Assembly (NCBI GenBank): GCA_001898645.1
Contig: MKUQ01000014.1
Location: forward strand, 1 to 64,000
Length of the DNA: 64,000 nucleotides
Direction: 5' to 3'
Source of the DNA: Burkholderiales bacterium 70-64
GTDB taxonomy: Bacteria > Pseudomonadota > Gammaproteobacteria > Burkholderiales > Burkholderiaceae_E
The translations under genes and the position numbers were made by a program. The notes under the pieces were generated by a model that had not been told where the DNA came from, ran no database searches, and worked only from the letters and a program-made list of their open reading frames with translations. Shown here piece by piece: positions 2,279 to 23,497 of the stretch. How positions within the stretch are numbered: position 1 is the stretch's first letter; each line of letters begins with the position of its first letter.

Positions 2279-2707
2279 TCAGGGCTCCGCCCCGCCTTCG
2301 GGATCGGTCACGAAGCCGATGCGCGACAGCCCCTGGCGCGCCAGCGCCGAGAGCACCCGCGCCATGTCCCCGTAGGGCACCGTGCGGTCGCCCTTCAGGT
2401 GGATCTCGGGCTGGGGCGTCTGGCCGGCGGAGTGTGCGGCGCGCTGCTCCAGCTCGGCGTACGAGACCGCCTCGCCGTTCCAGTGGATGCTTCCGTCGTG
2501 CTGCACGGCGACCTCGACGCGCTCGGCGCGGTCCACGTTGGGTCGGCTGCTCGCCCGCGGCAGATCGAGCTTCACCGCGTGGGTGAGCAGGGGCGCGGTG
2601 ACGATGAACACCACCAGCAGCACCAGCATCACGTCGACCAGCGGGATGACGTTGATGTCGGACATCGGCCGCCCGCCGCGGCCCCCGGCGTGCATTCCGT
2701 GCCCCAT
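2279..2707 (-). CDS. exbD: Biopolymer transporter ExbD
   Basis: MSDINVIPLVDVMLVLLVVFIVTAPLLTHAVKLDLP, the typical ExbD N-terminal TM and motif. Confidence 0.93.
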   Translation of the reverse strand: MGHGMHAGGRGGRPMSDINVIPLVDVMLVLLVVFIVTAPLLTHAVKLDLPRASSRPNVDRAERVEVAVQHDGSIHWNGEAVSYAELEQRAAHSAGQTPQPEIHLKGDRTVPYGDMARVLSALARQGLSRIGFVTDPEGGAEP

Positions 2708-3456
2708 CACGCGGCTTCCGTCACGCGCAGCGCGTGCACGCGCTCGCCGCGCGCTGCAGGGGTGCTGCCGCGCACCAGCGGCGCGCCGGTCTCGGCGAGG
2801 ACGGACAGCTCCTGGACGAAGGCATCGAGGCGGCCGAGCACCTGCCGGTTGCGCCGCGCCAGGGCGTTGTAGCCGAGCACCGCCGGGATCGCCACCGCCA
2901 GGCCGATCGCGGTCATGATCAGCGCCTCGCCGACCGGACCGGCGACCTTGTCGAGCGTGCCCTGGCCCGACAGGCCGATCGCGATCAGCGCGTGGTAGAT
3001 GCCCCAGACGGTGCCGAACAGCCCCACGAAGGGCGCCGTCGAGCCGATCGAGGCCAGGATCGTGAGCCCGCGCTCGAGGCGTTCCTCTTCCTCGTCGATG
3101 CCCTGGCGCAGGGCGCGGGCGAGGAACTCGGGCAGGTTGCCGCCGGTGTCGGGGTAATCGGAGCTGCGCGCCGCGTAGTGACGGGTCGAGTCGATCGCGA
3201 GGCCGGCGAGCCGGGCGCAGGGATCGTCCGCCGGGCTGGCCGCCAGCGCCTCGGAGGCCTCGGCAAGCGAGCGGGCACGCCGGAAGCGGGCCAGGAAGGC
3301 GCGGCTGCGTCGTTTCGCCAGCCAGTGGCCGACCAGCCGGTCGAGGAGGATCCCCCAGGTGGCGACCGATGCGACGAGCATCGCGGCGAGGATGAAGCGC
3401 GCGACGGAGTCGGCCTGCGACAGGTAATGGGTGAAGCCGAGCGCGGATTCGTTCAT
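2707..3456 (-). CDS. exbB: MotA/TolQ/ExbB proton channel family protein (ExbB)
   Basis: ...ILASIGSTAPFVGLFGTVWGIYHALIAIGLSGQGTLDKVAGPVGEALIMTAIGLAVAIPAVLGYN; internal ATG chosen within ORF 2707..4602. Confidence 0.93.
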   Translation of the reverse strand: MNESALGFTHYLSQADSVARFILAAMLVASVATWGILLDRLVGHWLAKRRSRAFLARFRRARSLAEASEALAASPADDPCARLAGLAIDSTRHYAARSSDYPDTGGNLPEFLARALRQGIDEEEERLERGLTILASIGSTAPFVGLFGTVWGIYHALIAIGLSGQGTLDKVAGPVGEALIMTAIGLAVAIPAVLGYNALARRNRQVLGRLDAFVQELSVLAETGAPLVRGSTPAARGERVHALRVTEAA

Positions 3457-3464: not shown

Positions 3465-4214
3465 TCACATCACGAAGGAAATGGGAATGAGGACCCAGGC
3501 CGCGGTGCGTTCCTCGCCGCGCCGCGCCGGGACGAAGCGCCATCCGGCCACCGCCGTCTGCGCCGCCTGGTCGAGGCGCTCGAAGCCGGAGGAGGTCCTG
3601 ACCTCGATCCGTTCGGCGCGCCCGTCCGCGGACACGCGCACGCGCAGCACCACTCGCCCTCGTTCGCCGAGGCGGCGCGAGATCGGTGGGTATTTGGGCG
3701 ACGGGTTGTCGAGGTAGTCGGCGTTGTAGATCGGCGGAGTCAGCGGCGCCGGAGGCGCCGGCGCGGGTGCTGCCGCTGCCGGCGCGGCGGCCACGGGCTC
3801 GACGGGTCCCTGCTGCACCGGGGCGGCCGGCGGCACCTCGACGACGAAGGGCGCAGGTGCCGCCTCCTCGCGCGGGGCCGCGGTCAGCAGAGGAGGCGGC
3901 TGCGGAGCGGGGCGGGGCCTGGGCGCCTGCACCGGCTTGCGGCGCGGCGGCTCGGGCGGCTTCTCCGGCGGCGCCACCGGCAGGGCCCGGGGCAGGATCA
4001 GGCTGGCCTGCACGACCTCGTTCAGCACGCTGCGCGCCTGCGGTGACACCTGCAGCACCAGCGCGATCACGGCCCCGTGCGCGAGCAGCACGCCCAGCCA
4101 TTGCACCGACCGCCGCGTCCAGCCCGGCGCGCCGGCCCACGCGACGCGCGAGGCGGGCGCGGCGTGGGTCGGCGTGCTGCCGAGCAGGAACTCTTCGTTC
4201 GGGTACGTCAGCAT
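3465..4214 (-). CDS. tonB: Energy transducer TonB
   Basis: N-terminal TM, Pro/Ala-rich linker, C-terminal YPPISRRLGERGRVVLRVRVSADGRAERIEVRTSSGFERLDQAA...WRFVPARRGEE. Confidence 0.93.
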   Translation of the reverse strand: MLTYPNEEFLLGSTPTHAAPASRVAWAGAPGWTRRSVQWLGVLLAHGAVIALVLQVSPQARSVLNEVVQASLILPRALPVAPPEKPPEPPRRKPVQAPRPRPAPQPPPLLTAAPREEAAPAPFVVEVPPAAPVQQGPVEPVAAAPAAAAPAPAPPAPLTPPIYNADYLDNPSPKYPPISRRLGERGRVVLRVRVSADGRAERIEVRTSSGFERLDQAAQTAVAGWRFVPARRGEERTAAWVLIPISFVM

Positions 4215-4258
4215 GTCGCAGGGATGCGCGTTTCGCGCCGCGCAGGCATGCCGGCCCG

Positions 4259-5296
4259 TTAGCGCGCGCCCGGCCGCCGCGCGAAATGCAGCTTGGTGTT
4301 GCCGTAGTTGCCCGCGAGGTCGGCACGCTCGGCATCGACCAGCCCGATGCCCTCCAGCCGCTGGCAGAACTGCTCGACGTGGCACAGGGGATGGCTGTCG
4401 GTGAGCACGGCCTTGTCCAGGTCGCGCAGGCCGCCCGGCGCCGTCTCGCAGTCCTCGAGGCAGAACCAGTGCGCGCAGGACAGCTCGCCGCCGGGCGCCA
4501 GGCAGCCGGCCGCTGCGCGCAGCGCGTCGGTGGTGACCTTGCGCACCGGGTACAGCGCGTGGAACAGCACGACGTGATCGAATGCTTCGCCGGCCGGCGC
4601 ATCGAGCGGCGTGCCGGTCGCGATGCGGCAGCGCGACGACACGCCGCAGGCGGCGATCGCCTCCTCGGCCTGCCGCTGCGCCTCGGGCGCGACGACGACC
4701 GTGGCGCGCAGGCCCGGATGGCGCTGGCACAGCGCGGCGGCGAGCAGGCCGCCGCTGCCGTCGAAGCACAGCAGCGTGCGCGCCGCGGCGGGATCGCCGC
4801 TCCACGCGCTTCGCGTCGCCAGGTGCGCGGCGAGGCCGCGCGCCTCGTCGAGGAAGGGATGCGTCGCGAGCGGCTGCGGCATCGTGCTCGCCGCCGGTTT
4901 CCACGTTTCGGACAGGAACAGCTGCAGGTCGGACCAGCCGCACTCCGGCAGCGTGAGCCCGTGCATCACCCGGGCCTGGCACCACGGGCTGCTCGCGCAC
5001 AGCACGGCGTCCATGCCCGGCGCCAGGGTATAGGCGAGGCCCTGGCGCGCGAGCAGCCCGAGGTCCTCCAGCGTCTGCAGGAAGGCGCCCAGGTGCGCGC
5101 CGCGCAGGTCCAGCGCGGCGGAGATGTCCGCCTTCGGCGCCGGCCCGTTGCGCTGCAGCCAGTCGAACAGGCCCGCGCCGTAGGCCGCGCGCAGCGCCTG
5201 GAACGCCTTGAATCCGTCCCCGATGCGGCGCACGGCGGCGACCGCCGGCGGAGCTTCGAGCGCGTCGAGGTCGGTCTTGCGAAACACCATGTCCAT
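4259..5296 (-). CDS. SAM-dependent methyltransferase, class I O-methyltransferase-like with dimerization-type N-terminus
   Basis: 345 aa; N-terminal winged-helix-like region (FDWLQRNGPAPKADISAALDLRGAHLGAFLQTLEDLGLLARQG) followed by a Rossmann core (LLCFDGSGGLLAAAL...LAPGGEL). Confidence 0.75.
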   Translation of the reverse strand: MDMVFRKTDLDALEAPPAVAAVRRIGDGFKAFQALRAAYGAGLFDWLQRNGPAPKADISAALDLRGAHLGAFLQTLEDLGLLARQGLAYTLAPGMDAVLCASSPWCQARVMHGLTLPECGWSDLQLFLSETWKPAASTMPQPLATHPFLDEARGLAAHLATRSAWSGDPAAARTLLCFDGSGGLLAAALCQRHPGLRATVVVAPEAQRQAEEAIAACGVSSRCRIATGTPLDAPAGEAFDHVVLFHALYPVRKVTTDALRAAAGCLAPGGELSCAHWFCLEDCETAPGGLRDLDKAVLTDSHPLCHVEQFCQRLEGIGLVDAERADLAGNYGNTKLHFARRPGAR

Positions 5297-5332: not shown

Positions 5333-6364
5333 TCAGCGGGCCTTGGCCGCGGCGCGCGGGCCGCCGGCCAGGATTTCGTCGACCTGCGCCGCCGACAGGT
5401 CGACTCCGAACAGGTCGCGATAGAAGCGCTGTGTCTCGGCGTTCACGTCGACGTCGGCGAACAGCGCGGGATGGAACTGCCGGGCCGCCCACAGCACGGT
5501 GAGGGGCTGCTCCGAGGTGCGGTTGCCCCAGGTGTGCGCGCCGCACGGCGCCACCAGCACGCGGCCGGTGCGTACTGCGTCGAGGCCGGCGAAGCGCCGA
5601 TCGCGCATCACCCTGTCGGCGTCCTCGCGGCTGGAGACGATCAGCACCTGCGGGTCCCAGGCGAGCAGCTGCTCCATGGTGAAGCTGCGCGATTCGATCT
5701 GGCGGCCGTCGTCGGTGACGCTGGCGCCGCCGGCGGCGCGGATCCACCATTCGGCCACCAGGTGCGGCTGGGTCAGCGTGCCCGGGCTGAAGTACAGCAC
5801 GCGCGGCCGCGGCGGGGCTGCGCTGCGCAGCCGCTCGTCGACCCGAGCGAGGATCTCGTCGAAGCGTGCGACGTAGCGCTGCGCGGCCTGCGGCCGGCCG
5901 AACAGCTCTCCGAGCAGCTGCACCACCTTCTTCACGTCCTCGGGCTGGCGCCAGGCCAGGAAGAGCGCGGGCAGGCCGGCGCGGCGCAGGCTGTCGGCGC
6001 TGGCTCGGTCCATGGTCAGCACCACGTCGGGTGCGGCCTGCAGCAATGCCTCGAGGCGCGGCGTGCGGTCGGCGTTCTGCATCGAGGGCAGCTCGGCGGT
6101 GTGCGGGGCGAACACCGACTGGTAGCCCCAGCGCGATCTCCGCGCGAACTCCGGCAGGCCGTTGACGATGCGCGTGCGCTCGCCGATCGCGAACACCAGG
6201 CTGTTGATCACCGGGACCGCGCCGACGGTGGCCACGCGCTCGATGCGTTCGGGCACCGTCACCGCGTCGCCCGCCATGTCGTGCAGCACGCGGGCCGGCG
6301 CGGCCTGCGCCGGCGCGAACGACAGCAGCAGCACCAGGGCCGGCAGGACGAGGCGGGAAATCAT
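5333..6364 (-). CDS. ABC transporter substrate-binding protein, class III/FecB-BtuF type (SBP1)
   Basis: Signal peptide then VLHDMAGDAVTVPERIERVATVGAVPVINSLVFAIGERTRIVNGLPEF...; adjacent to FecCD permease and ATPase. Confidence 0.88.
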   Translation of the reverse strand: MISRLVLPALVLLLSFAPAQAAPARVLHDMAGDAVTVPERIERVATVGAVPVINSLVFAIGERTRIVNGLPEFARRSRWGYQSVFAPHTAELPSMQNADRTPRLEALLQAAPDVVLTMDRASADSLRRAGLPALFLAWRQPEDVKKVVQLLGELFGRPQAAQRYVARFDEILARVDERLRSAAPPRPRVLYFSPGTLTQPHLVAEWWIRAAGGASVTDDGRQIESRSFTMEQLLAWDPQVLIVSSREDADRVMRDRRFAGLDAVRTGRVLVAPCGAHTWGNRTSEQPLTVLWAARQFHPALFADVDVNAETQRFYRDLFGVDLSAAQVDEILAGGPRAAAKAR

Positions 6365-6381: not shown

Positions 6382-7146
6382 TCACAGGCGGGGCACGCAG
6401 GCCACCGGCGCGCCGCCGTGGCTGACCACGTCGACCGGCGTGCCGTACAGGCGGGCGAGCGTGTCGGGCTGCAGCACCTCGCGGGCATGGCCGGCCGCCG
6501 CGATGCGTCCGCCGGCGATCGCGGCCACGCGCGCGTCCAGGAGCAGCGCGTGCTCGGGCTGGTGGGTGGTGACGAGCACGCTCATGCCGGCCACGGCGAG
6601 GTCGCGGATGGTGCGCAGCACCCGCACCTGGTTGCCCAGGTCGAGGCTGGCGGTGGGCTCGTCCATCAGGAACAGGCGGGGTGCCTGCGCCAGGGCGCGC
6701 GCGATCAGCGCCAGCTGGCGTTCGCCGCCGCTCACCCGGTTGAACGGCCGCGCCGCCAGGTGCGCGATGCCGACCCGCTCGAGCGCCTGGCGCGCCAGCT
6801 GCTCGTCGGAGCGGCCGGGCAGCGCCAGCGGCGCCAGATGGGGCGTGCGTCCCATGAGCACGATGTCGAGCAGCTGCAGCCCGCTGTCGCCGGCGGCCTG
6901 CGGCACGTAGGCCACCTTGCGCGCCAGCCGGCGCGAGGCGACGTGCGGCTCGCCGTCGATGCGCACCTGCCCCCGGTCGGCGTGCAGCGCGCCGATCAGG
7001 CAGCGCAGCAGCGTGGTCTTGCCGCTGCCGTTGGGCCCGAGCAGGCACAGGACCTCGCCCGGCGCGAGCGTGAGGTCGATGCCGTCGAGCACCGGCGGGC
7101 CGCCGGCCGCGCGGCGATAGACCAGGTTGGCCACGCTCAGGACCAT
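6382..7146 (-). CDS. FecE/BtuD-type ABC transporter ATP-binding protein (ATPase 1)
   Basis: Walker A GPNGSGKTT, signature VSGGERQLALIARAL, Walker B LFLMDEPTASLD. Confidence 0.95.
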   Translation of the reverse strand: MVLSVANLVYRRAAGGPPVLDGIDLTLAPGEVLCLLGPNGSGKTTLLRCLIGALHADRGQVRIDGEPHVASRRLARKVAYVPQAAGDSGLQLLDIVLMGRTPHLAPLALPGRSDEQLARQALERVGIAHLAARPFNRVSGGERQLALIARALAQAPRLFLMDEPTASLDLGNQVRVLRTIRDLAVAGMSVLVTTHQPEHALLLDARVAAIAGGRIAAAGHAREVLQPDTLARLYGTPVDVVSHGGAPVACVPRL

Positions 7147-8180
7147 TGCCGCCTCGCCCGCATCAGCACGGCGGCGAACACCGGGGCGCCGAGCACCGCG
7201 GTGACGATGCCCAGCGGCAGCTCCGCGGCGAACGCGCTGCGGCACAGGTCGTCCACCAGCAGCAGGTATCCGGCGCCGAGCAGGACCGAGGCCGGCAGCA
7301 GCGTGGTATAGGCCGGGCCGACGAGCAGGCGCGCCAGGTGCGGAACCAGCAGGCCGACCCAGCCGACGATGCCGGAGATGCTGACCGCCGCGGCGGTGGC
7401 CAGCGTCGCGGCGGCGATCAGCACGAAGCGCAGCGCGCGGACCGGCACGCCCAGCGTGCGCGCCTCGTCGTCGCCGGCTTCCAGCACCTGGGTCGGCCAG
7501 CGCAGCAGCCACAGGGCAGCGATGCCGACCAGCGCGAACGGGGCGGCCCACGCGAGGTCGGCCGCGACCACGCGCCCGAGGCTGCCGAGCAGCCAGAAGA
7601 CGATGGTGGGCAGGGTATCGAGCGGATCGGCGATGTACTTGAGGGCCGACGTGAGCGCCTGGAACAGCGCCGAGACCACCAGCCCGGCGAGCACCAGCAC
7701 CAGCATCGAGCCCTGGCCCAGGCGGCCCGCGATGAACATCACCGCGGCCACGGCGCCGATGCCGCCCGCGAAGGCCGAGCCCTGGATGGCCAGCGAGCCT
7801 GCGTGCAGCAGCATGGCCAGCGCGGCGCCGAAGCCGGCCCCGGACGAGACGCCGAGGATCGCCGGCGAGGCGAGCGGATTGCGGAACAGCGTCTGGTAGG
7901 CCGCACCCGCGGCGGCCAGGCTGGCGCCCACCAGCATGGCGGCCAGCACGCGCGGCAGGCGCACCGCCAGCACCACGTTCTCCACCACCGGGGGCTGGGC
8001 CGACGGGGCGCCGGTCAGGGCCGACCACAGCACGTCCACGACCATGGCGGGCGACAGCGGATAGTGGCCAAGGCCCATCGAGACGACGGCGATGACCAGC
8101 GTGCAGGCGAGGAGCAGCACGAGGGGACCGTAGGCGCGGCGGCGCAGCGGCTGGATCGCTTCGGCCAGTGCCGTGTTCAT
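7137..8180 (-). CDS. FecCD-family ABC transporter permease (permease 1)
   Basis: Multi-TM; RLPRVLAAMLVGASLAAAGAAYQTLFRNPLASPAILGVSSGAGFGAALAML and GWVGLLVPHLARLLVGP. Confidence 0.95.
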   Translation of the reverse strand: MNTALAEAIQPLRRRAYGPLVLLLACTLVIAVVSMGLGHYPLSPAMVVDVLWSALTGAPSAQPPVVENVVLAVRLPRVLAAMLVGASLAAAGAAYQTLFRNPLASPAILGVSSGAGFGAALAMLLHAGSLAIQGSAFAGGIGAVAAVMFIAGRLGQGSMLVLVLAGLVVSALFQALTSALKYIADPLDTLPTIVFWLLGSLGRVVAADLAWAAPFALVGIAALWLLRWPTQVLEAGDDEARTLGVPVRALRFVLIAAATLATAAAVSISGIVGWVGLLVPHLARLLVGPAYTTLLPASVLLGAGYLLLVDDLCRSAFAAELPLGIVTAVLGAPVFAAVLMRARRQWS

Positions 8181-9325
8181 GCGGCCATCCGCGGGGGAAA
8201 GGCGGCGAGGCTGGCGCCGAATTCGGCCAGCATGCCTGCCAGCAGCGGCCGCCGGTCGACGACGACGCACCCTTGGGGCCCGGCCAGGCGCGATCCCTCG
8301 CCGGCCGGCAGATGGCCGTCGTCGCGCGGCGAGGCGACGACGGCGTGGATGCGGCCGCCGCCACCGCCCGCCGCGAACCACAGCGGCAGCTCGTCGGCCT
8401 CCAGCCCCATGTTCAGGCCGATCTCGCAAGCCGGCGGCAGCACCAGGCGGGCGAGGGCGACGAGGCGAGCCACTGCCCAGGGGCTGCAGCGCATGCAATC
8501 GGCCATCGGCGTGCCGGCGGCGGGACGGAAGCGCGAGAAGGAAACGCGGCGCAGGCAGCGATAGCGCCGCAGGCGGCGGAGATGATCGAGGTGATCCTCG
8601 ATCCGCTCGCCGACGCCGGCGATGGCGATGGTCTCGAAGGGGATGCCTTCCTCCTCGCAGTCGTCCATCAGCACTTGCCTGGCATCCGGCGCTTCGCCGG
8701 GTTTCAGGCGGGCGAACAGCTCCGGCGTGAACGCCTCGGTCGATGTCACGATGGCCGCTGCGCCGCTGCGGTGCAGCGCGCGCAGCCCGGCGCGGGAGAA
8801 GGATGGGCCGAAGTTGAGCACCGGCGACAGGCCGGCCTCGACCGCCGCCTCGACCAGCGCCAGCGCCTGCGCGTCGTAGCCGCCCGGCAGGGTTCCGCCG
8901 TTCAGGTAGACCCAGTGCAGCCCGTGCCCGGCGAGCATGGTCAGCGCCTCGAGCGCCTGGGCGTCGGTGAGGAAGTAGCCGGGGGTGCGGGGGCAGTACA
9001 CGCACGGCGGCGTGACCGCGCAGATCGCGATCGGCGAGACGACGCCCGCGGGAACGAAGCACCGCCCGACGTGCTCGTCGCGGATGCGGCAGGCGAGATC
9101 GAACAGGACGGCCGCATTGCGCGGCTCGGCCGAGATCGCATGCAGGCGCAGCGCGAGATCGAGGTTGTCCGGGTCGTCCAGCAGTTCGGCCGCCACGCTG
9201 CGGCACTCGGCAGCGGCCCGCTGCGCCTTCGTTGCCGTCGCCGATTCCCCGGCGAGGATCGCGGCGGCGTTCACCCCTGGGCGAGGAGGCCAGGGAGACG
9301 GGGAAACCGTGGTATTCGAGCGCAT
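8177..9325 (-). CDS. Radical SAM protein with CX5CX2C cluster motif (paralogue 1)
   Basis: 'CAVTPPCVYCPRTP' = C-x5-C-x2-C; TIM-barrel-like downstream sequence; start set at MRSNTTVSPSP. Confidence 0.75.
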   Translation of the reverse strand: MRSNTTVSPSPWPPRPGVNAAAILAGESATATKAQRAAAECRSVAAELLDDPDNLDLALRLHAISAEPRNAAVLFDLACRIRDEHVGRCFVPAGVVSPIAICAVTPPCVYCPRTPGYFLTDAQALEALTMLAGHGLHWVYLNGGTLPGGYDAQALALVEAAVEAGLSPVLNFGPSFSRAGLRALHRSGAAAIVTSTEAFTPELFARLKPGEAPDARQVLMDDCEEEGIPFETIAIAGVGERIEDHLDHLRRLRRYRCLRRVSFSRFRPAAGTPMADCMRCSPWAVARLVALARLVLPPACEIGLNMGLEADELPLWFAAGGGGGRIHAVVASPRDDGHLPAGEGSRLAGPQGCVVVDRRPLLAGMLAEFGASLAAFPPRMAA

Positions 9326-9369: not shown

Positions 9370-9393
9370 CGTTATATTCGGAAGTATATGACG
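9370..9393. promoter_or_regulatory. Putative Mo-box/ModE-like operator upstream of the radical SAM-ABC-tonB operon
   Basis: CGTTATATTCGGAAGTATATGACG: imperfect palindrome CGTTAT-N12-ATGACG in the intergenic region 45 bp upstream of the 8177..9325 start. Confidence 0.6.
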
Positions 9394-9414: not shown

Positions 9415-10206
9415 TCAATCGATCGCCGCTGCCTGTTTCGGCAGCACGACCGGCCGCCGCGGCAGGTTCAGCACGTCGACCTCCACGCCATAGAGGCGCC
9501 GGATGTTCTCCGCGGTGATCACCGCCGCCGGTGCGCCGGAAGCGCACAGCTTCCCGTCGTGCAGCAGCAGCGCCCGATCGGAGACGTGCAGGGCGTGATC
9601 CGGGAAATGGGTCGATTTGACGAAGCCGAAACCCTCGTCGGCCATGCGCCGTATCCGGTCGAGCAGGCGGATCTGGTTGCCGAAATCGAGGCCGCCGACC
9701 GGCTCGTCCATGACGAAATAGCGTGCTCCCTGGGCCAGGGCCCGGGCGATCAGCACCAGCTGCCGCTCGCCGCCGCTCAGCCGGTGATAGGGGCTTCCCG
9801 CGAGGTGCTCGATGGACAGGCGCCGCAGCGCCTCGCGCGCGAGGCGGCGGTCCTCGGCGTCGTAGGCCGCCAGCAGGCTCTTGCGCGGCAGGCGCCCCAT
9901 GAGCACCACGTCCTCGGCGCGGAAGGGGAACGTCACCTGGTGGATCTGCGGCACATAGGCGACGATGCCGGCGCGTTCGCGCAGCGGCACGGCGGACAGC
10001 GGGCGGCCCTCCAGCAGGATCTCGCCGGCATCGGGGCGCAGCATGCCGAGCAGCAGGCGCAGCAGGGTGCTCTTCCCTGCGCCGTTCGGGCCCAGCAGCG
10101 AGACCACCTCGCCGGCCGCCAACGACAGGGAGACGTCCTCCAGGATGCGTCGCCCTCCGTAGGCGAAGGCGACGGCGCGGGCCTCGATGCCGGGCGCCGG
10201 CGTCAT
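9415..10206 (-). CDS. FecE-type ABC transporter ATP-binding protein (ATPase 2)
   Basis: Walker A GPNGAGKST, LSGGERQLVLIARAL, FVMDEPVGGLD. Confidence 0.95.
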   Translation of the reverse strand: MTPAPGIEARAVAFAYGGRRILEDVSLSLAAGEVVSLLGPNGAGKSTLLRLLLGMLRPDAGEILLEGRPLSAVPLRERAGIVAYVPQIHQVTFPFRAEDVVLMGRLPRKSLLAAYDAEDRRLAREALRRLSIEHLAGSPYHRLSGGERQLVLIARALAQGARYFVMDEPVGGLDFGNQIRLLDRIRRMADEGFGFVKSTHFPDHALHVSDRALLLHDGKLCASGAPAAVITAENIRRLYGVEVDVLNLPRRPVVLPKQAAAID

Positions 10207-11240
10207 GCCCAGGCCTTCTGCGCGTTGCGCAGCACGATGACGAAGACCGGGATGCCGATCAGCTCCGTCAGCACGCCGAGCGGCAGCTCGGCGCTGTGCA
10301 GCGTACGCGCCCCGGTGTCGACCAGGATCAGGAAGACCCCTCCCAGCAGGGCGCTGGCCGGCAGGAGGCGATGGCTCTGCGGGCCGACCAGCAGGCGCGC
10401 TACATGCGGCACGACCAGCCCGATCCAGCCGACCATGCCGGCCAGGGCCACGGTGAGCGCGCTGGACAGGGTGGCACCGAAGATCACCCAGCCGCGCACG
10501 CGCGGCACGTCGACGCCGAGCGCGCGTGCCTCGTCCTCGCCCATGGCCAGCGCGTCGAGCTGCTTGCACCACACCAGCATGATCGCGATGCCCGCGAGGA
10601 TGGGCGCGGCCATGCGTGCGACGACGGCGCCGTCGGTCTGCGCCAGGCTGCCCATCAGCCAGTGGACGATGGTCGGCAGCTGGTTGATCGGGTCGGCGAG
10701 GAACTTGACGATGGAGAGCAGCGCGGTGAAGAAGGCCGCGCTGATGATGCCGGTGAGGATCAGCATGAGCAGGGAACGATCCTGCTGCACGCGGGCCAGC
10801 ACGAGCGCCAGCGCTACGGCCCCGACGCCGCCGGCGAAGGCCAGCAGCTGGACCAGCAGCCAGCTCTTCGAGAGCAGCAGGCCGAGCGCGGCGCCGAACG
10901 AGGCGCCGGCGAGGACGCCGAGCAGCCCGGGCGAGACCAGCGGATTCATGAACACCGCCTGGTAGGCGGCGCCCGAGGTCGACAGGGCCGCGCCGACCAG
11001 CAGGGCGGCAGCGATGCGCGGTGCCCGGATGTCCCAGAGCAGATTGCCGATCAGCGCCTGGCGCGACTCGTCCATGCCTGCGGCGCCGACCGTGGCGGCC
11101 AGGTACTGGAGCACCTCCAGCGGCGGAAGCGGATAGCGTCCCGAGGAAAGCGACAGCAGGACCGCCAGGGCCAGCGTCGCCGCGAGCGCCGGCAACAGCA
11201 GGGCAAGCTGCCGGTCGCTGCCGTCGCGCCGACTGCTCAT
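10203..11240 (-). CDS. FecCD-family ABC transporter permease (permease 2)
   Basis: RAPRIAAALLVGAALSTSGAAYQAVFMNPLVSPGLLGVLAGASFGAALGLLL; GWIGLVVPHVARLLVGP. Confidence 0.95.
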   Translation of the reverse strand: MSSRRDGSDRQLALLLPALAATLALAVLLSLSSGRYPLPPLEVLQYLAATVGAAGMDESRQALIGNLLWDIRAPRIAAALLVGAALSTSGAAYQAVFMNPLVSPGLLGVLAGASFGAALGLLLSKSWLLVQLLAFAGGVGAVALALVLARVQQDRSLLMLILTGIISAAFFTALLSIVKFLADPINQLPTIVHWLMGSLAQTDGAVVARMAAPILAGIAIMLVWCKQLDALAMGEDEARALGVDVPRVRGWVIFGATLSSALTVALAGMVGWIGLVVPHVARLLVGPQSHRLLPASALLGGVFLILVDTGARTLHSAELPLGVLTELIGIPVFVIVLRNAQKAWA

Positions 11241-12283
11241 CAGGGCGCGCCGTCCAGCAGCTCGCGCGCCTCGTCCGCGCTCAGCGTCACGCCGTAGAAC
11301 CTCTCGTAGAACCGGATGGTCTCGCGCACGAGATCGAGATCCGCGAACCGGTCCGGGTACAGCGTCCTGGCCATCCACAGGAGGGAGGGTGCGAGCTCCG
11401 GCGTGTAGTGCGTCCACGGCATGAAGCCGCGCGGAATCGGGAACACGCGCCGCTGCTTGACGGCGGCCAGGCGGCGCAGGCGCGGATCGCGATAGGCCTT
11501 CTCCGCCTCTTCCCGCGACCAGACCACGATCACGTCCGGATTGTCGGCCAGCAGTTGCTCCGGCGAGAGCTGCAGGGTGTCGATGCCGGCGGTCTTCTCG
11601 GGCACCGGCATGCCGCCGGCATGCTCGATCAGCCATCCGGCCGTCGGGCGCATCGGGCTGGTCAGGCTCTCGAGGCGAAGATAGACGGCCTTGGGCCGCG
11701 GCTTCGCGGGCGAGGCGCGCAGGCGCTTGTCGATGTACGCCAGCACCGCGTCCAGATAGGCGCCGTAGTCGCGCGCCCGCGCCGGCTGGTCGAACACCTT
11801 GCCCATCAGCTCGACGCTGGCGCGGATGCTCTCGGCATTGCGCCAGGTCACCGCGACGGTCCTGAAGCCCTTGCTCTCCAGGGCGCGGATGTTGCCGGCC
11901 TCGACCGCGAAGACGAGATCCGGACGCAGCGACAGCAGCGTCTCCAGGTTGGCCGCCCAGCCGGGCGGCTCGGAAACGGCGGGCAGCTCCGCCAGCTGCG
12001 GCGCGGCCAGCGTCTGCAGGCGCCAGCGCGCCGGCTGGCTGCGGATGAAGTTGGGCAGGCCGTTGACCAGCGCGCCTCCCTTGCCGAAGAGGAAGACGAA
12101 GGCGTTGACGCCGGGCGTGCCGTCCGGGGTGGCGATGCGCCGGATCTGGCCGGCCGGCGGCAGGGCCACCGTGCGTCCGGCCATGTCGGTCACCGTGCGC
12201 GCTTCGCCCGCCGCCGCGGCTGCCCCCGCCAGGCAGAGGAGAAGCAGCGCCAGCAGCGGCCTGGCGAAGGCCCGGGCCGGCAT
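11240..12283 (-). CDS. ABC transporter substrate-binding protein, class III (SBP2)
   Basis: Signal peptide then RTVTDMAGRTVALPPAGQIRRIATPDGTPGVNAFVFLFGKGGALVNGLPNF...; translationally coupled to permease 2. Confidence 0.88.
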   Translation of the reverse strand: MPARAFARPLLALLLLCLAGAAAAAGEARTVTDMAGRTVALPPAGQIRRIATPDGTPGVNAFVFLFGKGGALVNGLPNFIRSQPARWRLQTLAAPQLAELPAVSEPPGWAANLETLLSLRPDLVFAVEAGNIRALESKGFRTVAVTWRNAESIRASVELMGKVFDQPARARDYGAYLDAVLAYIDKRLRASPAKPRPKAVYLRLESLTSPMRPTAGWLIEHAGGMPVPEKTAGIDTLQLSPEQLLADNPDVIVVWSREEAEKAYRDPRLRRLAAVKQRRVFPIPRGFMPWTHYTPELAPSLLWMARTLYPDRFADLDLVRETIRFYERFYGVTLSADEARELLDGAP

Positions 12284-13155
12284 CAGAATTGCCCCGTGGC
12301 CGAGACGACGACGGTGCGCGGCGCGCCGGGGTAGTAGACCGGCGCGCTGCCGGGGTTCCGGTCGTCGGCGGTGATGATGCCGATGTAGCGCTTGTCGTCC
12401 AGTTGCAGGCGGCCGGCGTCCTGCGTGAAGCCGAAGCTGAGATTCCTTCTTTCCGATTCGCCCTCGCCGCGCCATTTGTCTGCCGCGGCATGGGAAGCGG
12501 AGACGAACAGGCGGCTTCCCTCGCCGAAACGCCCGCTGTCGAGGCGCAGGAAAGCCTTGTGGAAATTGTCGCTGCCTCCGGCGAGGCGGGTGGTGACGCC
12601 TGCCTGGTCCGCGGGCCGCAGCAGCTTCAGGTCCAGGCCGCCCGCCAGGTTGCCGAAGCCGAATCCCTGGTCGGCCGCCAACGGCCCGCGCAGCGCCACG
12701 ACGCGCTCGACGTTCTCCATGTCGTAGAGGTTGCCGATCGCCGCCTGGCCGACGTTGACCGTGGAGGGTAGCCCTTCGACCGTTGCCGCCAGGTTGCTGA
12801 AGGTGTAGCCCATCTGGCCGCGAACGCGCATGAAGTTCTGGTCGACGGTGATGCCGTAGGCGTCGACGCCCTCGACGTGGGTCGAGGGCGCAAGCTCGAT
12901 GGCCCGATACGGGCTGGTCTGCGCGGCGCCCCCCAGGACCGGCAGGGCCTGCCGTCCGACCTCGAAGCTCGCGGCCTTGGCGTCGGGGCTGGATTCCGCC
13001 AGCGGTGCGCCGGGGCGAACCTCGATGGACGGCAGCGTCGCCTCTTGCGCCAGCGCGGGAAGGGTGCCTCCCGCGGCAACGGCATAGACGGCGGCGGCGA
13101 CGATGGTTCTTGCGAAAGGAGGCCGTTGCGAGGGCACGGCTGCGCTCGTGGTCAT
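12283..13155 (-). CDS. Internally deleted TonB-dependent receptor (plug plus start of barrel joined in frame to the terminal strand), about 290 aa
   Basis: Plug-domain sequence matches the neighbouring receptors (MRVRGQMGYTFSNLAATVEGLP...LFVSASHAAADKWRGEGESERRNLSFGF). It then jumps to a C-terminal receptor end (DKRYIGIITADDRNPGSAPVYYPGAPRTVVVSATGQF). The paralogues are about 745-774 aa. Confidence 0.8.
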   Translation of the reverse strand: MTTSAAVPSQRPPFARTIVAAAVYAVAAGGTLPALAQEATLPSIEVRPGAPLAESSPDAKAASFEVGRQALPVLGGAAQTSPYRAIELAPSTHVEGVDAYGITVDQNFMRVRGQMGYTFSNLAATVEGLPSTVNVGQAAIGNLYDMENVERVVALRGPLAADQGFGFGNLAGGLDLKLLRPADQAGVTTRLAGGSDNFHKAFLRLDSGRFGEGSRLFVSASHAAADKWRGEGESERRNLSFGFTQDAGRLQLDDKRYIGIITADDRNPGSAPVYYPGAPRTVVVSATGQF

Positions 13156-13158
13156 CGG

Positions 13159-15423
13159 TCAGAACTCCGCCGCAAGGGTTGCCGCGACGGCGCGGGGAGC
13201 GCCCGGGTAGAAGGTGGCCGTGCCGCGGGGATCGACGTCGTTGCTGCTGATGATGCCGATGTAGCGGCGGTCGAAGAGGTTCATCACCGTCAGCGCAGCG
13301 GTGGTGCGCTTGAGCCCTGCGAACCTGGGCAGGGCATACCGGATGTCCAGGTCGACGACGACGTACCCCGGCAGCTTCTGGGTATTGAGCGCATCGCCGT
13401 AGCGCGCCCCGATGTAGCGCGCGGTCGGCGTCAGCGTCCAGCCGCCCTGGCGGTAGCTCGCGCCCAGCTTCGCCATGAAGCGCGGCGCGTCGGCGACCTG
13501 CTTGCCGGCAGTGGCCAGCACGACCCCGCTGGCCGCCTCGATGTCCTGGGACATCTCGAACCTGGACAGGGACAGGCCGCCGAACAGCGTGAGCCCCTGC
13601 ATCGGCGACCAGCCGCCCTCGATCTCGCCGCCGTAGGCGTGCGCCTTGCCCGCGTTCTGGGCATAGGACACGCCCAGCAGCGGATCGAAGAGCTGCACGG
13701 AACGATTGCGGTACCGCGCGTCGTAGAGCACCGGAGACAGGTACCAGTCATCGCCTGCGAGGTGCAGGCCGATGTCCAGGTTGTCCGAGAGCTCCTGGTC
13801 GGCCTGGTTCCACAGGTCCTGGAGCGTCGTGCCGGCGGCGACGAACTGGGCCCGGGCCGCGTTGTAGGTGGTGGCGATGCCGAAGGCCGGCACGCCGTAG
13901 TTGCGGCCGTAGTTCACGTATGCCTTGGCGCGGGGCGAGAACGCATACGCCACGCCCGCGTTCGGCAGCCAGTTGGTCAGCCGGCGGCTCGATGCTTCGC
14001 GGTCCGGGCTGGTTGCCGGGTTCTGCTTGAACGCGTCCTCGTAGCTGCTGTCGGCGAGCCCGGCGCCGTTGTAGTAGGTGATCGACGGCGTGCGGTAGTG
14101 CAGATAGCGGGCGCCTCCTTCCCACGACCATGCCCCGGACTTCCCTTGCAGGCCGGCGTAGGGGCTGCTGTAGAGATGGTTGGTCATCTTCGAGAGCGTC
14201 GTCCAGCCGGCGAAGCTGAGGCTGCCGTCGGCGGCGATGCGATACGCTCTCTGATGAAGCGGGGGCCCGGGCGGCTCCTGCACGTGGAACCAGTAGCCGG
14301 CGATGCCGCGGATCTCGTGCCCCTCGTCCCGATAGAGCTGCCGCTCGGCCTGGGCGAGCAGGCCGTACACCTCCGATTCGAAGTCCCAGCGCACCACCCC
14401 CGGCGCACCGAGGGCGTTCGACGATCCGTTCCACGTGTGGCCGTCGATCTTTAGGTAATAGGCCTTGAGGAATCCGGTCGATGTGGGGCCTCCGAAGCGC
14501 AGGGTGCCGAACAGCGCCTGGTTCTTCACGCTCTGCCGGTTGAACCCGTAGTAGGCGACGTCCTGCGCGGCGTTTCCGGTCAGCGTGCGGTTGTAGTCGA
14601 AGTCGCGGTAGGTGGAGAGATCCGTGGCCTGCGCGTAGGTGAGCGGCCGGTAGTTGTGCTGGTCCTGGTCGTTCTGGAGGCCGAACAGCTCGAGGCGGAC
14701 TCCGCCCCCCAGCGGCTGCACGAGGCCGAACTGGATGCCCTCGCGACCCTCGGGAGACTGGCCGGCGCCCCGCCACTTGTCCGCTTCGGTGCGCGAGGCG
14801 GACACGAAGAGCTGCGTTCCTGTCGCAAGCTTTCCGCTGTCGACGCGGGCGAACAGGCGCTGGAAGCCGAAGCTGCCGAACGAGGCCTTGACCTGCCCGC
14901 CGAAAACGTCGGCGGGGCGAAGGAAATGCATGTCGACGCTGCCCGAGGCGTTGACGAATCCCACGCCCTTGTCGATGGGCACGGCGCCGCGGTAGAAGTC
15001 GATGGCGCCGACGTTCTCGAGGTCGAACATCTGGATCCCGGTGAATCCGCCGAGATTGCCGATCGGCATGCCTTCGTAGGTCTGGCCCGGCGCCTGGGAG
15101 CTGTTCGGGCGCCCGCGCGACCGGATCGACTGGCTGCTCGAAAGGCCATAGGGGTCGGCAGCCTCGAACATCACCGACGGCAATCCGGACAGCGCCCTGT
15201 AGGCATTGGTCTGGGCAGGGCCGGAGTAGATGCGGATCCCTTCGGCGGTCACCGTCTCCTCGGAGCGCGGCCGTTCCGTTGCCGGCGCGCTCAACTCGCC
15301 GTTCTGCCCGCCGACGACGCTGATTTCCGGCAGGGCGGGTTCCTCGGCGGCGGCCAATGCGGACGACATGCTCAGCAGCGCGAGCGCGACATGCAGCCTC
15401 GTTCTTCCGGTTTCTGGTTTCAC
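13159..15423 (-). CDS. TonB-dependent receptor (TBDR2)
   Basis: 754 aa; signal peptide, plug (SIRSRGRPNSSQAPGQTYEGMPIGNLGGFTGIQMFDLENVGAIDFYRGAVP), C-terminal aromatic ...LAAEF. Confidence 0.92.
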   Translation of the reverse strand: MKPETGRTRLHVALALLSMSSALAAAEEPALPEISVVGGQNGELSAPATERPRSEETVTAEGIRIYSGPAQTNAYRALSGLPSVMFEAADPYGLSSSQSIRSRGRPNSSQAPGQTYEGMPIGNLGGFTGIQMFDLENVGAIDFYRGAVPIDKGVGFVNASGSVDMHFLRPADVFGGQVKASFGSFGFQRLFARVDSGKLATGTQLFVSASRTEADKWRGAGQSPEGREGIQFGLVQPLGGGVRLELFGLQNDQDQHNYRPLTYAQATDLSTYRDFDYNRTLTGNAAQDVAYYGFNRQSVKNQALFGTLRFGGPTSTGFLKAYYLKIDGHTWNGSSNALGAPGVVRWDFESEVYGLLAQAERQLYRDEGHEIRGIAGYWFHVQEPPGPPLHQRAYRIAADGSLSFAGWTTLSKMTNHLYSSPYAGLQGKSGAWSWEGGARYLHYRTPSITYYNGAGLADSSYEDAFKQNPATSPDREASSRRLTNWLPNAGVAYAFSPRAKAYVNYGRNYGVPAFGIATTYNAARAQFVAAGTTLQDLWNQADQELSDNLDIGLHLAGDDWYLSPVLYDARYRNRSVQLFDPLLGVSYAQNAGKAHAYGGEIEGGWSPMQGLTLFGGLSLSRFEMSQDIEAASGVVLATAGKQVADAPRFMAKLGASYRQGGWTLTPTARYIGARYGDALNTQKLPGYVVVDLDIRYALPRFAGLKRTTAALTVMNLFDRRYIGIISSNDVDPRGTATFYPGAPRAVAATLAAEF

Positions 15424-15490: not shown

Positions 15491-16516
15491 TCATGGGCCG
15501 AGCCGGCGGTCGGTGAAGGTGGGCCGCAGCCCGGCGTCGCTCAGGAACCGGTCCAGCAACGGACGCCGGTCGACGAGCCGCAGCCCGCCCTCGAGCGGCG
15601 TGGCGAGCTCCCGCAGTGCCGGGGGCGGCTCCATGGTGTGCACGCCCATGGCGAAGAGCTGGTTGCCGCCGCCGGCGCGGTGCCACGCCGGCAATTCGGC
15701 CAGGTCGACCCCGCCGCCCAGCCCGATGCGCACGTGCGGCAGCAGCAGGCGGGCGAGGGCGACGGTGCGCGCCCAGTCGTGCATCGTGGTCGACTCGCGC
15801 TCGGCCAGCGGCGTATCGGAGCGGGGAGTGAAGCGCGACACCATGAGGTGACGCAGGCCGCCGCAGGCGCGCAGCTCGAGCAGATGGTCGATACGGTCGG
15901 CGTCCGATTCGCCGAGGCCGATCATCATGATGCTGCGCACCTCGAAGCCCCGCTCGCGGGCCTCGACGAGCACGCGCCGCCGCGCGGCCAGGGAATCGCC
16001 GGGCTTGTGGCGGCGGAAGAGCGGTTCGTTCACCGTCTCCAGCGAGGCGGTGACGCCGGCCACGCCGAGGGCGCGCAGGCGCTCCAGGCCGGCGGCGGTC
16101 AGGCTTCCGCCGACGTTGACCTCGATCTCCATGTCGAGGCCCTGTTCTCGAATGCGCTCCACGACGTCGACGACGGCATCGTCGTAATCGCCGTCGCGGC
16201 TGCCGCCCACCAGCAGCACGCGGCGGATGCCGCGCGCCGCCAGCGCGGCGGCGCCGCCAGCCAGCCGGCTGCGCGCGATGACGCGTGCGCGCCACCAGTC
16301 GCAGTACTCGCAACGGGGCTCGATGGCACAGGCGAGGATGGGGCCCATCGTCGCCATGTAGTGCACGGTCGTGCCGAAGACGCGGTCGCGCAGCCGCGCG
16401 GCCGCATCGAACAGCGCTTCGGCTGCGGCCGGCACGACTGCCCCGGCATAGAGCGCGAGCGCTTCGTCGCGCTCGAGCGCCCTGCCGTCCAGGATGTCTT
16501 CGTCCAGGCTGCCCAA
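15491..16516 (-). CDS. Radical SAM protein with CX5CX2C cluster motif (paralogue 2)
   Basis: 'CAIEPRCEYC' = C-x5-C-x2-C; shares the FDxAxRxRD segment upstream and the VSRFTPRSDTPLAE / VSFSRFRPAAGTPMAD segment with paralogue 1. Confidence 0.78.
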   Translation of the reverse strand: MGSLDEDILDGRALERDEALALYAGAVVPAAAEALFDAAARLRDRVFGTTVHYMATMGPILACAIEPRCEYCDWWRARVIARSRLAGGAAALAARGIRRVLLVGGSRDGDYDDAVVDVVERIREQGLDMEIEVNVGGSLTAAGLERLRALGVAGVTASLETVNEPLFRRHKPGDSLAARRRVLVEARERGFEVRSIMMIGLGESDADRIDHLLELRACGGLRHLMVSRFTPRSDTPLAERESTTMHDWARTVALARLLLPHVRIGLGGGVDLAELPAWHRAGGGNQLFAMGVHTMEPPPALRELATPLEGGLRLVDRRPLLDRFLSDAGLRPTFTDRRLGP

Positions 16517-16537: not shown

Positions 16538-17617
16538 TCAGTCCATTCCGGCCAGGATCGCCGCGGCTTCCCGGGCATCGATGGGCATGGAATAGAAGCG
16601 GCGGTAGAACTCGCGCGTCTCGCCGACCAGGTCGAGATCGGCGAAGCGTTCCGGATGCGTGCGCTGGGCCAGCCAGAGGATCCCGAGGCAGTATTCGGCG
16701 CTCGGGGTCAGCCAGGGAGCGGCGCCCACCGGAACCGCATGGACGCGCTTGTTGCGTACCGCGGACAGGTGGGCGAAACGCGGGTCGGTCGAGACCTGTT
16801 CCAGGTCCTTGCGCGACCACACGACCAGCACTTCCGGGTCGGCCCGCAGCAGGGTCTCCAGCGGCATCGCCGTCTGCCCTTCCGGCGTGCGGCGGCCGAT
16901 GTTGTCGCTGGCGACGGTGGCCAGGGCCCAATCGGTCAGGTGCCGCACCGGCTGAGACATGGTCTTCAGGTTGAGGAGGGCGGCGCTCGGGCGCCGCAGC
17001 GGCGCCGTGCCGGCGGCCAGCCCCGAGCGGACCCGCTTCACGTTGCCTTCGCAATAGCCGCGGAATTCCTGCGCCCGCGCCTTTGCGTGGAACACCTCGC
17101 CGAACAGGTCGACGATGCGCATCAGGTCGTCGAAGTCGTTCCAGTCCACGAGCAGCGTCGGCAGGCCTGCCGCCTCGAGCACCGGCACGAAGGCGCGCAT
17201 GTTGGTGACGACGACGCCGGGGGCCAGCGCCAGCAGCGCCTCGATGCTCGGCTGCCCGTCGCCGCCGGTGATGGGCGGCAGCGTGCTCACCTGCGGCATC
17301 AGGCGGCGCTGCATGGACCAGTACGATGTCCGGGCGAAGGGCGGAAGGCCGTTGGCGATGACCTCCGTCCTGCCGATAGCGAACAGGAAGCTGTTGAGCA
17401 CCGGCGTGCCGCCCAGCGTCGCCGTGCGGCTGACCGTCTCCGGGATCCTCACCGAGCGGCCGGTGACGTCGGTGACCGTCCGCTGCGCCCATCCCGTACC
17501 GCACAGCAGGCAGCATCCCAGCCACAGCGCGGCGCGCAGCAGCCCGCGCAGCGGGCCGCTGCGCCTGGGGCCGGCGCCGTGGCCCGCACCGACCAACCCT
17601 GGCACAACCCGCTTCAT
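16538..17617 (-). CDS. ABC transporter substrate-binding protein, class III (SBP3)
   Basis: RTVTDVTGRSVRIPETVSRTATLGGTPVLNSFLFAIGRTEVIANGLPPFARTSYWSMQRRL... Confidence 0.87.
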   Translation of the reverse strand: MKRVVPGLVGAGHGAGPRRSGPLRGLLRAALWLGCCLLCGTGWAQRTVTDVTGRSVRIPETVSRTATLGGTPVLNSFLFAIGRTEVIANGLPPFARTSYWSMQRRLMPQVSTLPPITGGDGQPSIEALLALAPGVVVTNMRAFVPVLEAAGLPTLLVDWNDFDDLMRIVDLFGEVFHAKARAQEFRGYCEGNVKRVRSGLAAGTAPLRRPSAALLNLKTMSQPVRHLTDWALATVASDNIGRRTPEGQTAMPLETLLRADPEVLVVWSRKDLEQVSTDPRFAHLSAVRNKRVHAVPVGAAPWLTPSAEYCLGILWLAQRTHPERFADLDLVGETREFYRRFYSMPIDAREAAAILAGMD

Positions 17618-17642: not shown

Positions 17643-19877
17643 TCAGAACTTCGCGGTCATGGTCACCGCCACCGTCCTCGGGGCGCCGGCGTAGTAGGAC
17701 GTGCCGGCATTGAGGTCGGTGCTGTTCGGCGTGATCATCCCGATGTAGCGCTTGTCGAAGAGGTTGAGCACGGAAGCGTGGATGCCGACGTCCTGCAACG
17801 CTCCGACGTTTCGCCAGCGATAGCCCAGGTGCACGTCGGCGACCCAGTAGGCGTCGACCTCTTCCTTCTGCAGGATGTCGCCGTAGCGCTTGCCGGTGTA
17901 GCGCACCATTGGCGAAACGCTCCAGTCGCCGCTGCGCCAGTCCAGTCCGAAGCGGCCCAGGACGCGGGCGGCATTGGGCACCTGCTTGCCGTCGGTGGGC
18001 GTCGGGGTGCCGCTGCGCGTCAGGATGTCGCCGTCGAAGGCGAAGCGGTTGTAGGACGCGGCGAACAGCGCCGACAGGCTGGCGCTGACGCGATAGCTGC
18101 CCTCCAGCTCGACCCCCTTGCCGATCGTGCGCGCCGTGCACTGGTTGTAGCTGACGCCGACCGTCGGATCGAAGACGTTGACCTGTCCGTTGCGAGCGCG
18201 CGAGTAGTAGATGCTCGAGGCCAGGGACAGGCGCTCGCCGGCGTAGCGCACGCCGAGATCCACGTTGTCGGAGACCTCGGGCTCGAGCTTGCCGATGACG
18301 TCCTGGAGGGTGACGCCCTTGCTCACGAAGGCGTTCCGGTTGGCGATGTAGGTGTTGATCGTCGCGCCCGAATTCGTTCCGCCGACCCGGCGGCCGTAGG
18401 CCGCGGTCAATGCCGTGTCAGGGGTCAGGTCGTAGCGCAGGGAGAGGTTCGGCAGCAGGGTGCGCAGGTCCTTCGATTCGATCTGCATCCACGGGTCGCG
18501 GGGCGGGTTCGCTGCCAGGGCGCCGTCGTAGCTGCCGTCGGGCAGGCCGGCGGCATTGAAATAGGACAGCGACGGGACGTACTCCTCCATCAGCCGCAGT
18601 CCGCCGGACAGCGTGGCCGGGCCCAGGCGTCCGGTCAGCTGGACGAAGGGACTGCGGTACTTGTGGTCCCCGTGCTTCGACAGCAGGGCCCATTGGGCAA
18701 AGGTGAGGCTGCCGTCGGCATTGATGCCGTAGTCCTTCTGGTACACCGGCGGCGGCGGCGACTCGAGCGTCATCCACCAGTAGCCCGCCGCGAGATCGAC
18801 ATTACGCGACAGCTTCAGGTCGTACTGGGCCAGCAGGCCGGTCTGCTTGTGCTCGATGTCCCAGCGCCGGACGCGGTTGACGCCGGCGCCGAACATCATG
18901 TAGCCGTCGTCGTCCAGGTAGTGCGTGCGCAAGGTGAAACGCCCGTTCTCGCCGACCGGCAGGATCAGGTTGGCCATCAGCGCGATGTCATCGAACTCCT
19001 GCCGGTTGAAGCCGTAATAGAGCTGCTGCTGGGCGGGATTGCGCACCTCGTCGTAGTCGAAGCGGCGCCAGTTCGACTTGTCCTGCGCCTGGGCGTAGTT
19101 CATCGCCCGGTAGTCGTTGGCGGCGATGTGGTTGAACAGGGCGAACACCTCGATGCGCGCGCCGTTCGAGAACGGCTGGGCGAGCCCGAACATGGCATTG
19201 CGGCGCTCCGACTGGCCGGCGCCTTTCCATTTGTCGGTCTGCATGTCGGAGGCGGAGACGAAGAACGCGGTGCCGGCGGGCCCGACGCTGCCGCTGTCCA
19301 GCCTGGCGAAGGTCCTGCGGAAACCGAACGAGCCGAAACCCTGGGAGGCCTCGATGCCGAACTGCTTCTCCGGCCGGCGCAGCGTCATGTCGGCCACGCC
19401 CAGGATGTTGGAGACGCCGAGGCCGACGCCGGCGGGCATGGCGCCGCGGTAGAGGTCGTACGCGCCGATGTTCTCGAGATCGAACAGGTCCGCGCCGCCC
19501 GGCCCGATGGTGGTCGGCATGCCGTCCACCGTGAAGGTGATGCCGCCTCCGCCGCCGGCGGTCCTGCCGCGCAGGTTCAGGTTGCGGTTGGCCGAGATGC
19601 CGTAGGCATCGGCGGTCTCGGTGTTCACGGAGGGCATCAGGTCGAACAGGCGGAAGGTGCTCGTCTGCGCCGGGCCGCCGAGAACGCCGATGCCTTCGCG
19701 CGACACCGAGTCGTGCGCCCAGGGCAGCGGGTCGGGTTGCGTCAGCGGCGCGTCCTTCGGCGAGGGAACGACGACGTCGGGCAGGGTGACTTCGGCGGCC
19801 GCCGCCTGGGAGGCGGCGAACAGGGCGGCGAGCGCGGCGGCAAGGACTTTCTTCCGTGGGTGCATGAGGGATGCCAT
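17643..19877 (-). CDS. TonB-dependent receptor (TBDR3)
   Basis: About 744 aa; N-terminal signal MHPRKKVLAAALAALFAASQAAAAEVTLPDVVV; plug and C-terminal NLFDKRYIGMITPNSTDLNAGTSYYAGAPRTVAVTMTAKF. Confidence 0.92.
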   Translation of the reverse strand: MASLMHPRKKVLAAALAALFAASQAAAAEVTLPDVVVPSPKDAPLTQPDPLPWAHDSVSREGIGVLGGPAQTSTFRLFDLMPSVNTETADAYGISANRNLNLRGRTAGGGGGITFTVDGMPTTIGPGGADLFDLENIGAYDLYRGAMPAGVGLGVSNILGVADMTLRRPEKQFGIEASQGFGSFGFRRTFARLDSGSVGPAGTAFFVSASDMQTDKWKGAGQSERRNAMFGLAQPFSNGARIEVFALFNHIAANDYRAMNYAQAQDKSNWRRFDYDEVRNPAQQQLYYGFNRQEFDDIALMANLILPVGENGRFTLRTHYLDDDGYMMFGAGVNRVRRWDIEHKQTGLLAQYDLKLSRNVDLAAGYWWMTLESPPPPVYQKDYGINADGSLTFAQWALLSKHGDHKYRSPFVQLTGRLGPATLSGGLRLMEEYVPSLSYFNAAGLPDGSYDGALAANPPRDPWMQIESKDLRTLLPNLSLRYDLTPDTALTAAYGRRVGGTNSGATINTYIANRNAFVSKGVTLQDVIGKLEPEVSDNVDLGVRYAGERLSLASSIYYSRARNGQVNVFDPTVGVSYNQCTARTIGKGVELEGSYRVSASLSALFAASYNRFAFDGDILTRSGTPTPTDGKQVPNAARVLGRFGLDWRSGDWSVSPMVRYTGKRYGDILQKEEVDAYWVADVHLGYRWRNVGALQDVGIHASVLNLFDKRYIGMITPNSTDLNAGTSYYAGAPRTVAVTMTAKF

Positions 19878-19885: not shown

Positions 19886-20929
19886 TCAGTTCGTTCCGTT
19901 GAGGATTGCCCGGGCTTCCTCGGCGTCGATCGCGATGCCGAAGAAGCGCCGGTAGAAGTCGCGCGTCTCGCGGACCGGGTCGAGGTCCGCGAATCGCGCC
20001 GGGTGCAGCGCCCGGGCGGTCCACAGCACGCCGAGGCATTGCTCGACGCCGGGCGCGAGCCAGGGCGTGGCGCCCACCGGCACCGCGTGGACCCGCTGTC
20101 CCCTGACCGCGCTCATGGCGGCGAAGCGCGGGTCGGCGAGCAGCGCATCGCGTTCCTCGCGCGACCAGACGATCAGCACCTCGGGATCGGCCCGCAGCAG
20201 GGCTTCCGACGTCATGGCCGCCTGCCCGGCAGCGAGGCCATGACGGCCGACGTTGTCGCCGCCGGCAGCCGACAGCGTCCAGTCCGCGATGCGCGCCGGT
20301 TGCGACATGGTCTTCATGCGCAGGAACGCGACGCGCGGCGGCCGCGGCCGCTCGCCGGCCGCCAGGCCGGCGGCGATCCGCGCGACGTTCTCCTCGCACG
20401 AGCGGCGGAACTCGGCCGCCCGTTCCCGCGCCTGCAGGACCTCGCCCAGCAGCTCGGCGGTGCGCATCAGGTCGCCGAAGCCGTTCCACTCGAAGAGCAG
20501 CACCGGCAGGCCGACCGCCTCGATCACGGGCACGGCGCCGCGCGACGAGGCCAGCACGACGCCGGGTGCGAGCGCGAGCAGGGCCTCGACATTGGGCTGG
20601 CCGTCGCTGCCGGCCACTACCGGCAGCTCGGCCAGGCGCGGCCCCAAGCGACGCTGCATCGCCCAGTAGCTCGTCCGGAAGAACGGCGGCAGGCCGCTGC
20701 CGATGAGGTCGCTTCGGCCGAGCATGAACACGAAGCTGTTCAGCGGCGCCACCGCTCCCAGGATCGCCGTCCGCTCGACCCGGGCCGGCACGGCCACCTG
20801 CCGGCCCGCGAGGTCGGTGACGCCGTCCCGTGCCCACGACGCGGCGCAGGACAGCGCGAGCAGCAGGCAGAGTGCGATCCGCCGCGCGGCGCGCGTCGGA
20901 TCGCCTGCCCGCAGGGAGGCCTGTTTCAT
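19886..20929 (-). CDS. ABC transporter substrate-binding protein, class III (SBP4)
   Basis: DGVTDLAGRQVAVPARVERTAILGAVAPLNSFVFMLGRSDLIGSGLPPFFRTSYWAMQRRLGP... Confidence 0.87.
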   Translation of the reverse strand: MKQASLRAGDPTRAARRIALCLLLALSCAASWARDGVTDLAGRQVAVPARVERTAILGAVAPLNSFVFMLGRSDLIGSGLPPFFRTSYWAMQRRLGPRLAELPVVAGSDGQPNVEALLALAPGVVLASSRGAVPVIEAVGLPVLLFEWNGFGDLMRTAELLGEVLQARERAAEFRRSCEENVARIAAGLAAGERPRPPRVAFLRMKTMSQPARIADWTLSAAGGDNVGRHGLAAGQAAMTSEALLRADPEVLIVWSREERDALLADPRFAAMSAVRGQRVHAVPVGATPWLAPGVEQCLGVLWTARALHPARFADLDPVRETRDFYRRFFGIAIDAEEARAILNGTN

Positions 20930-23292: not shown

Positions 23293-23316
23293 CGTTATGT
23301 TTGATTGTATATAACG
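23293..23316. promoter_or_regulatory. Putative Mo-box/ModE-like operator upstream of the TBDR4 operon
   Basis: CGTTATGTTTGATTGTATATAACG: perfect 6-bp arms CGTTAT/ATAACG with 12-nt spacing, immediately upstream of the TBDR4 start. Confidence 0.65.
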
Positions 23317-23473: not shown

Positions 23474-23497
23474 CGGAATATAAGAGTTTATATAACG
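23474..23497. promoter_or_regulatory. Second, weaker Mo-box-like site in the TBDR4/cas intergenic region
   Basis: CGGAATATAAGAGTTTATATAACG: same 24-nt frame, one perfect arm (ATAACG), the other degenerate. Confidence 0.4.

Follow-up and report, generated by a model that had tools for sequence, protein, structure and literature searches.

Genes of the locus

The window analysed here, a 64,000-nucleotide stretch of a contig of Burkholderiales bacterium 70-64, carries two operons on the minus strand. The upstream operon opens with a TonB-dependent receptor gene (20961..23285), followed by genes for a periplasmic binding protein (19886..20929), a second TonB-dependent receptor (17643..19850, start approximate), a second binding protein (16538..17617) whose second-best PDB match is MolA (HI_1472), the HcgA/HmdB-like enzyme radical SAM-2 with a CX5CX2C motif (15491..16516), a further TonB-dependent receptor (13159..15423), a shortened receptor (12283..13155), a third binding protein (11240..12406, start approximate), a FecCD permease (10203..11237) and an ABC ATPase (9415..10206). 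The shortened receptor has 290 aa and retains only the plug and the last strands: its residues 38-253 and 254-290 match residues 52-269 and 738-774 of a neighbouring receptor, which points either to an internal deletion in frame or to a collapse in the assembly.

The downstream operon begins with radical SAM-1 (8177..9325), also HcgA/HmdB-like with a CX5CX2C cluster motif. It continues with a FecCD-type permease (7137..8162; 75-85% identity to permeases of three other genomes), the ABC ATPase of the same importer (6382..7140), a periplasmic binding protein whose relatives include MolA and further class III binding proteins (5333..6361), a SAM methyltransferase with an O-methyltransferase dimerisation domain (4259..5296; the neighbouring gene is conserved in two of the three relatives), TonB (3465..4250), ExbB (2707..3420) and ExbD (2279..2710). 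The parts of a MolBC-A-type importer, namely a FecCD permease, an ATPase and a class III binding protein, are thus all present. Among the solved structures closest to the binding proteins are H. influenzae MolA, which binds molybdate, and equally iron-complex proteins and proteins of unknown ligand. A plus-strand gene for a 558-aa deaminase-domain protein (249-1925), perhaps an anti-phage deaminase, borders the cluster in a stretch of lower GC content (57%).

The radical SAM proteins carry the cluster motif as CAVTPPCVYC and CAIEPRCEYC. Their closest family model is that of HcgA/HmdB of [Fe]-hydrogenase cofactor synthesis (PMC10100467), with which they have this unusual motif in common; unlike HcgA/HmdB, they score far under the family cut-off (74.3 and 110.6 bits against TIGR03957, curated cut-off 320.9), and Hmd (TIGR01723) was not found in this genome. 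A role in FeGP cofactor synthesis was dropped because of this lack of an Hmd gene. The radical SAM family is rare: it occurs in 2 of 300 genomes in a sample of the order, and this is the only genome to have it of 74 in the taxonomic family, of 369 in the class and of 399 in a phylum sample. Plasmid-borne relatives of radical SAM-1 were not found by tblastn.

A ModE box in front of radical SAM-1

The ABC ATPase stop (9415) and the radical SAM-1 ATG (9325) are separated by an 89-bp gap, and within it lies CGTTATATTCGGAAGTATATGACG, at 9370-9393. An initial annotation had described a 24-nt palindrome at this place, intergenic and 45 bp from the start codon, and had proposed that it is a site for ModE, the molybdenum-sensing protein. 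Its description of the element was accurate, as the outer 8-mers pair at 7 of 8 positions as an inverted repeat and 44 bp lie between the box and the ATG (95 bp if translation starts at the alternative in-frame GTG at 9274). Symmetry is not what makes the site noteworthy, since the window holds 99 gapped 8-N8-8 palindromes with at least 7 of 8 pairs, as compared with 53-60 in shuffles; we therefore dropped palindromy as evidence. The site stands out because it fits the ModE core far better than chance would allow: it agrees with CGTTATAT-N8-ATATAACG at 15 of 16 positions, a single mismatch, with exact spacing. Letters and spacing also agree with the E. coli ModE consensus ATCGNTATATA-N6-TATATANCGAT as quoted in PMC545781, and the inverted repeat CGnTATATA-N6-TATATAnCG is found here with the correct spacing. 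One hundred dinucleotide shuffles of the window gave no match to the core at up to 3 mismatches, whereas the real window has three. An RNA element at this position was also considered and dropped, since an Rfam search of the window returned no match, including to the known Moco riboswitch.

The two other matches in the window, both absent from the initial annotation, stand in front of the upstream operon. One is CGTTATGTTTGATTGTATATAACG (23293..23316, 1 mismatch), whose end leaves 7 bp to the ATG of the first TonB receptor gene; the other is CGGAATATAAGAGTTTATATAACG (23474..23497, 2 mismatches), which lies farther upstream of this gene, at about 190 bp. Radical SAM-2, internal to this operon, has no box in front of it. 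On the other side, a Cas4-Cas1 fusion gene (23670-25418, plus strand) starts about 170 bp from a ModE box, divergent from the receptor operon, and an apparent long repeat array follows it at about 26-34 kb.

ModE boxes and ModE proteins in the genome

Across the whole 4.72-Mb genome the core occurs 3 times at up to 1 mismatch, 7 times at up to 2 and 8 times at up to 3, where 0.0007, 0.025 and 0.55 occurrences, respectively, are expected per genome at 70% GC; a reversed control pattern does not occur in it at all. One box precedes modA-modB-modC-modE (C46:70055-70078), and two (C60:145989 and C60:146083) precede a cluster of TonB receptor, binding protein, FecCD permease and ATPase genes. Another stands 6 bp before the ATG of a third radical SAM gene, radical SAM-3, which a TonB receptor gene follows (C54:3397), and a further one separates a short ModE-like HTH gene from a DUF2325 gene, DUF2478 adjoining (C30:6337). 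Because three congeners (G715, G724 and G725) all have a box directly before modA, the motif is, judged from this placement, the mod operator in this genus.

A full-length ModE, with an HTH and two tandem TOBE domains, is encoded in the genome (L013:12335-13189). It matches E. coli ModE in the PDB (1b9m) with an E value of 8.8e-41, and its recognition region is conserved (SYKAAWDAVDTMN here, SYKSAWDAINEMN in E. coli). There is also a short ModE-like paralogue (L015:5851-6303) that has the HTH domain without the molybdate-binding domains, carries a box of its own on its divergent promoter, and could share the site at 9370-9393.

Related loci in other genomes

Three further loci were found, in genome G120 (L023), Candidatus Accumulibacter sp. 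66-26 (L026) and Janthinobacterium sp. palsa_998 (L027), the two named relatives coming from a scan of genome contigs. All three have the gene order radical SAM, TonB receptor, permease, ATPase and binding protein, with the methyltransferase in two. Identity to the genes that follow radical SAM-1 here is 59-85% for the permease, ATPase, binding protein and methyltransferase. The orthologue of their radical SAM genes is radical SAM-3 (71-75%) and not radical SAM-1 (35-39%), and for this reason the box at 9370 has no strict orthologous site. Footprinting, suggested in the initial annotation as a check, showed conservation in front of related operons. Boxes stand before the radical SAM ATG of the related operons in these three other genera, at 11 bp in G120, 12 bp in Accumulibacter and 47 bp in Janthinobacterium, with 4, 4 and 3 mismatches; two of the three are weak, having 4 mismatches and one degraded half-site. 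Equal matches arose in 5 of 1000 shuffles for G120 and 2 of 1000 for Janthinobacterium. Since the radical SAM family occurs in very few genomes, the footprint rests on few loci.

The neighbourhoods in G120 and Accumulibacter also contain molybdoenzyme, DUF2478, ModE-like or modA genes. G120 has in addition a perfect box close at hand, next to a short ModE-like gene, and its cluster includes a molybdopterin oxidoreductase; the modA-like gene of the Accumulibacter locus was identified by reading its translation.

Discussion

The core match, the presence of ModE in the genome and the box at modABC together support the ModE site proposed in the initial annotation. It is very probable, as far as the sequence can tell, that 9370-9393 is a ModE operator that represses the radical-SAM-1 operon until molybdenum is low. 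When molybdate is plentiful, a molybdate-loaded ModE dimer would bind 9370-9393 and cover the promoter of this second minus-strand operon, so that transcription of radical SAM-1, permease, ATPase, binding protein, methyltransferase, TonB, ExbB and ExbD would be blocked. When molybdenum is low, ModE would leave, and the operon would be expressed along with modABC, the upstream receptor operon (boxes at 23293 and 23474) and the rest of the regulon. We infer ModE binding at 9370-9393 from what was observed: the site itself, its match, its genome-wide company, the ModE gene and the boxes of the relatives.

That 9370-9393 might be a chance AT-rich palindrome without function is extremely improbable; gapped palindromes of equal quality are indeed common in the window (the 99 counted above), but the match is specific to the ModE sequence, has no equal in the shuffles, and is accompanied by other boxes in the genome and by conservation. 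It is also unlikely that the short ModE-like protein (L015:5851-6303) is the main binder of the site, in which case the signal would perhaps not be molybdate directly. The gene is present here with its own box on its divergent promoter, and in G120, too, there is a short ModE-like gene, near which lies the best of all the boxes; this must be set against the full-length ModE with its conserved recognition region, whose own operon has the same box.

As for the direction of control, E. coli ModE both activates and represses, and this dual action would allow ModE to serve as an activator at 9370-9393, as it does at E. coli moaA or dmsA. A simple scan of 9300-9480 did not locate a sigma-70-like promoter, so that any overlap between box and promoter is putative. 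Activation nonetheless seems very improbable to us. Five boxes stand 6-47 bp before start codons, too close for the usual activator position, and this closeness suggests repression instead. Moreover, the presence of a metal normally represses the genes for its uptake, morAB and mopA-modABC of Rhodobacter capsulatus being examples (PMC6925177).

Returning to ModE repression, the operator itself is of a known kind, sharing with the ModE operators of Escherichia coli and other bacteria its sequence, its spacing and its place before modABC with modE in the operon; the surrounding regulon is unusual. The difference from known ModE operators lies in the targets, among them TonB receptors, FecCD-type importers and HcgA-like radical SAM genes. 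In R. capsulatus, where the Mo-boxes of MopA/MopB precede mopA-modABC, morAB and anfA, ModE-like repressors also act on a second transport system besides ModABC; that system, MorABC, is ModABC-like, and the available part of the source mentions neither a TonB receptor nor a radical SAM gene (PMC6925177). Haemophilus influenzae MolBC-A resembles the present system as a BtuCD-type importer, in its case for molybdate; MolA (HI_1472) ranks near the top of the solved structures related to the binding proteins here, and mol expression drops with molybdate; it differs in that no outer-membrane receptor or radical SAM enzyme is reported for it in the available part of PMC4031551. The HmuTRUVW haem uptake system likewise combines a TonB receptor, TonB/ExbBD, a BtuCD-type importer and a radical SAM enzyme, there the ligand-breaking HmuW, but it serves iron and haem, and HmuW is a class C methyltransferase and not HcgA-like (PMC10404700). 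Neither a ModE box before HcgA-like enzymes and TonB receptors nor outer-membrane molybdenum uptake under ModE control was found in the literature searched.

The box is almost certainly a site for ModE, and would thereby put a rare set of outer-membrane receptors, importers for metal complexes and unusual radical enzymes under molybdenum control. What the cluster takes in is probably molybdenum, or tungsten, complexed with an organic ligand, and the HcgA-like enzymes would make or break that ligand; the radical SAM enzymes may either build it or break it as HmuW breaks haem. More tentatively, we can imagine a dedicated molybdenum metallophore system, a starvation regulon in which HcgA-like radical SAM enzymes and the methyltransferase would make and/or cleave a small organic molybdenum ligand and TonB receptors would take up its metal complex, a possibility that we would not yet favour. 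The regulation links a rare and unexplained HcgA-like radical SAM family, together with TonB receptors, to molybdenum, and this link offers a direct growth and expression test for the substrate of these enzymes and receptors.

Two minor observations concern boxes at other loci. In two distant genomes (L023:3410-5785 and L015:5851-7754) a short ModE-like HTH gene and a DUF2325 gene are neighbours and flank a ModE box; the pair is on the same strand in one and divergent in the other, and DUF2478 genes are near both. In G120, another TonB receptor gene lies near ModE-like, TOBE-domain and ModA-like genes (L047:1762-6678), with a 1-mismatch box upstream.
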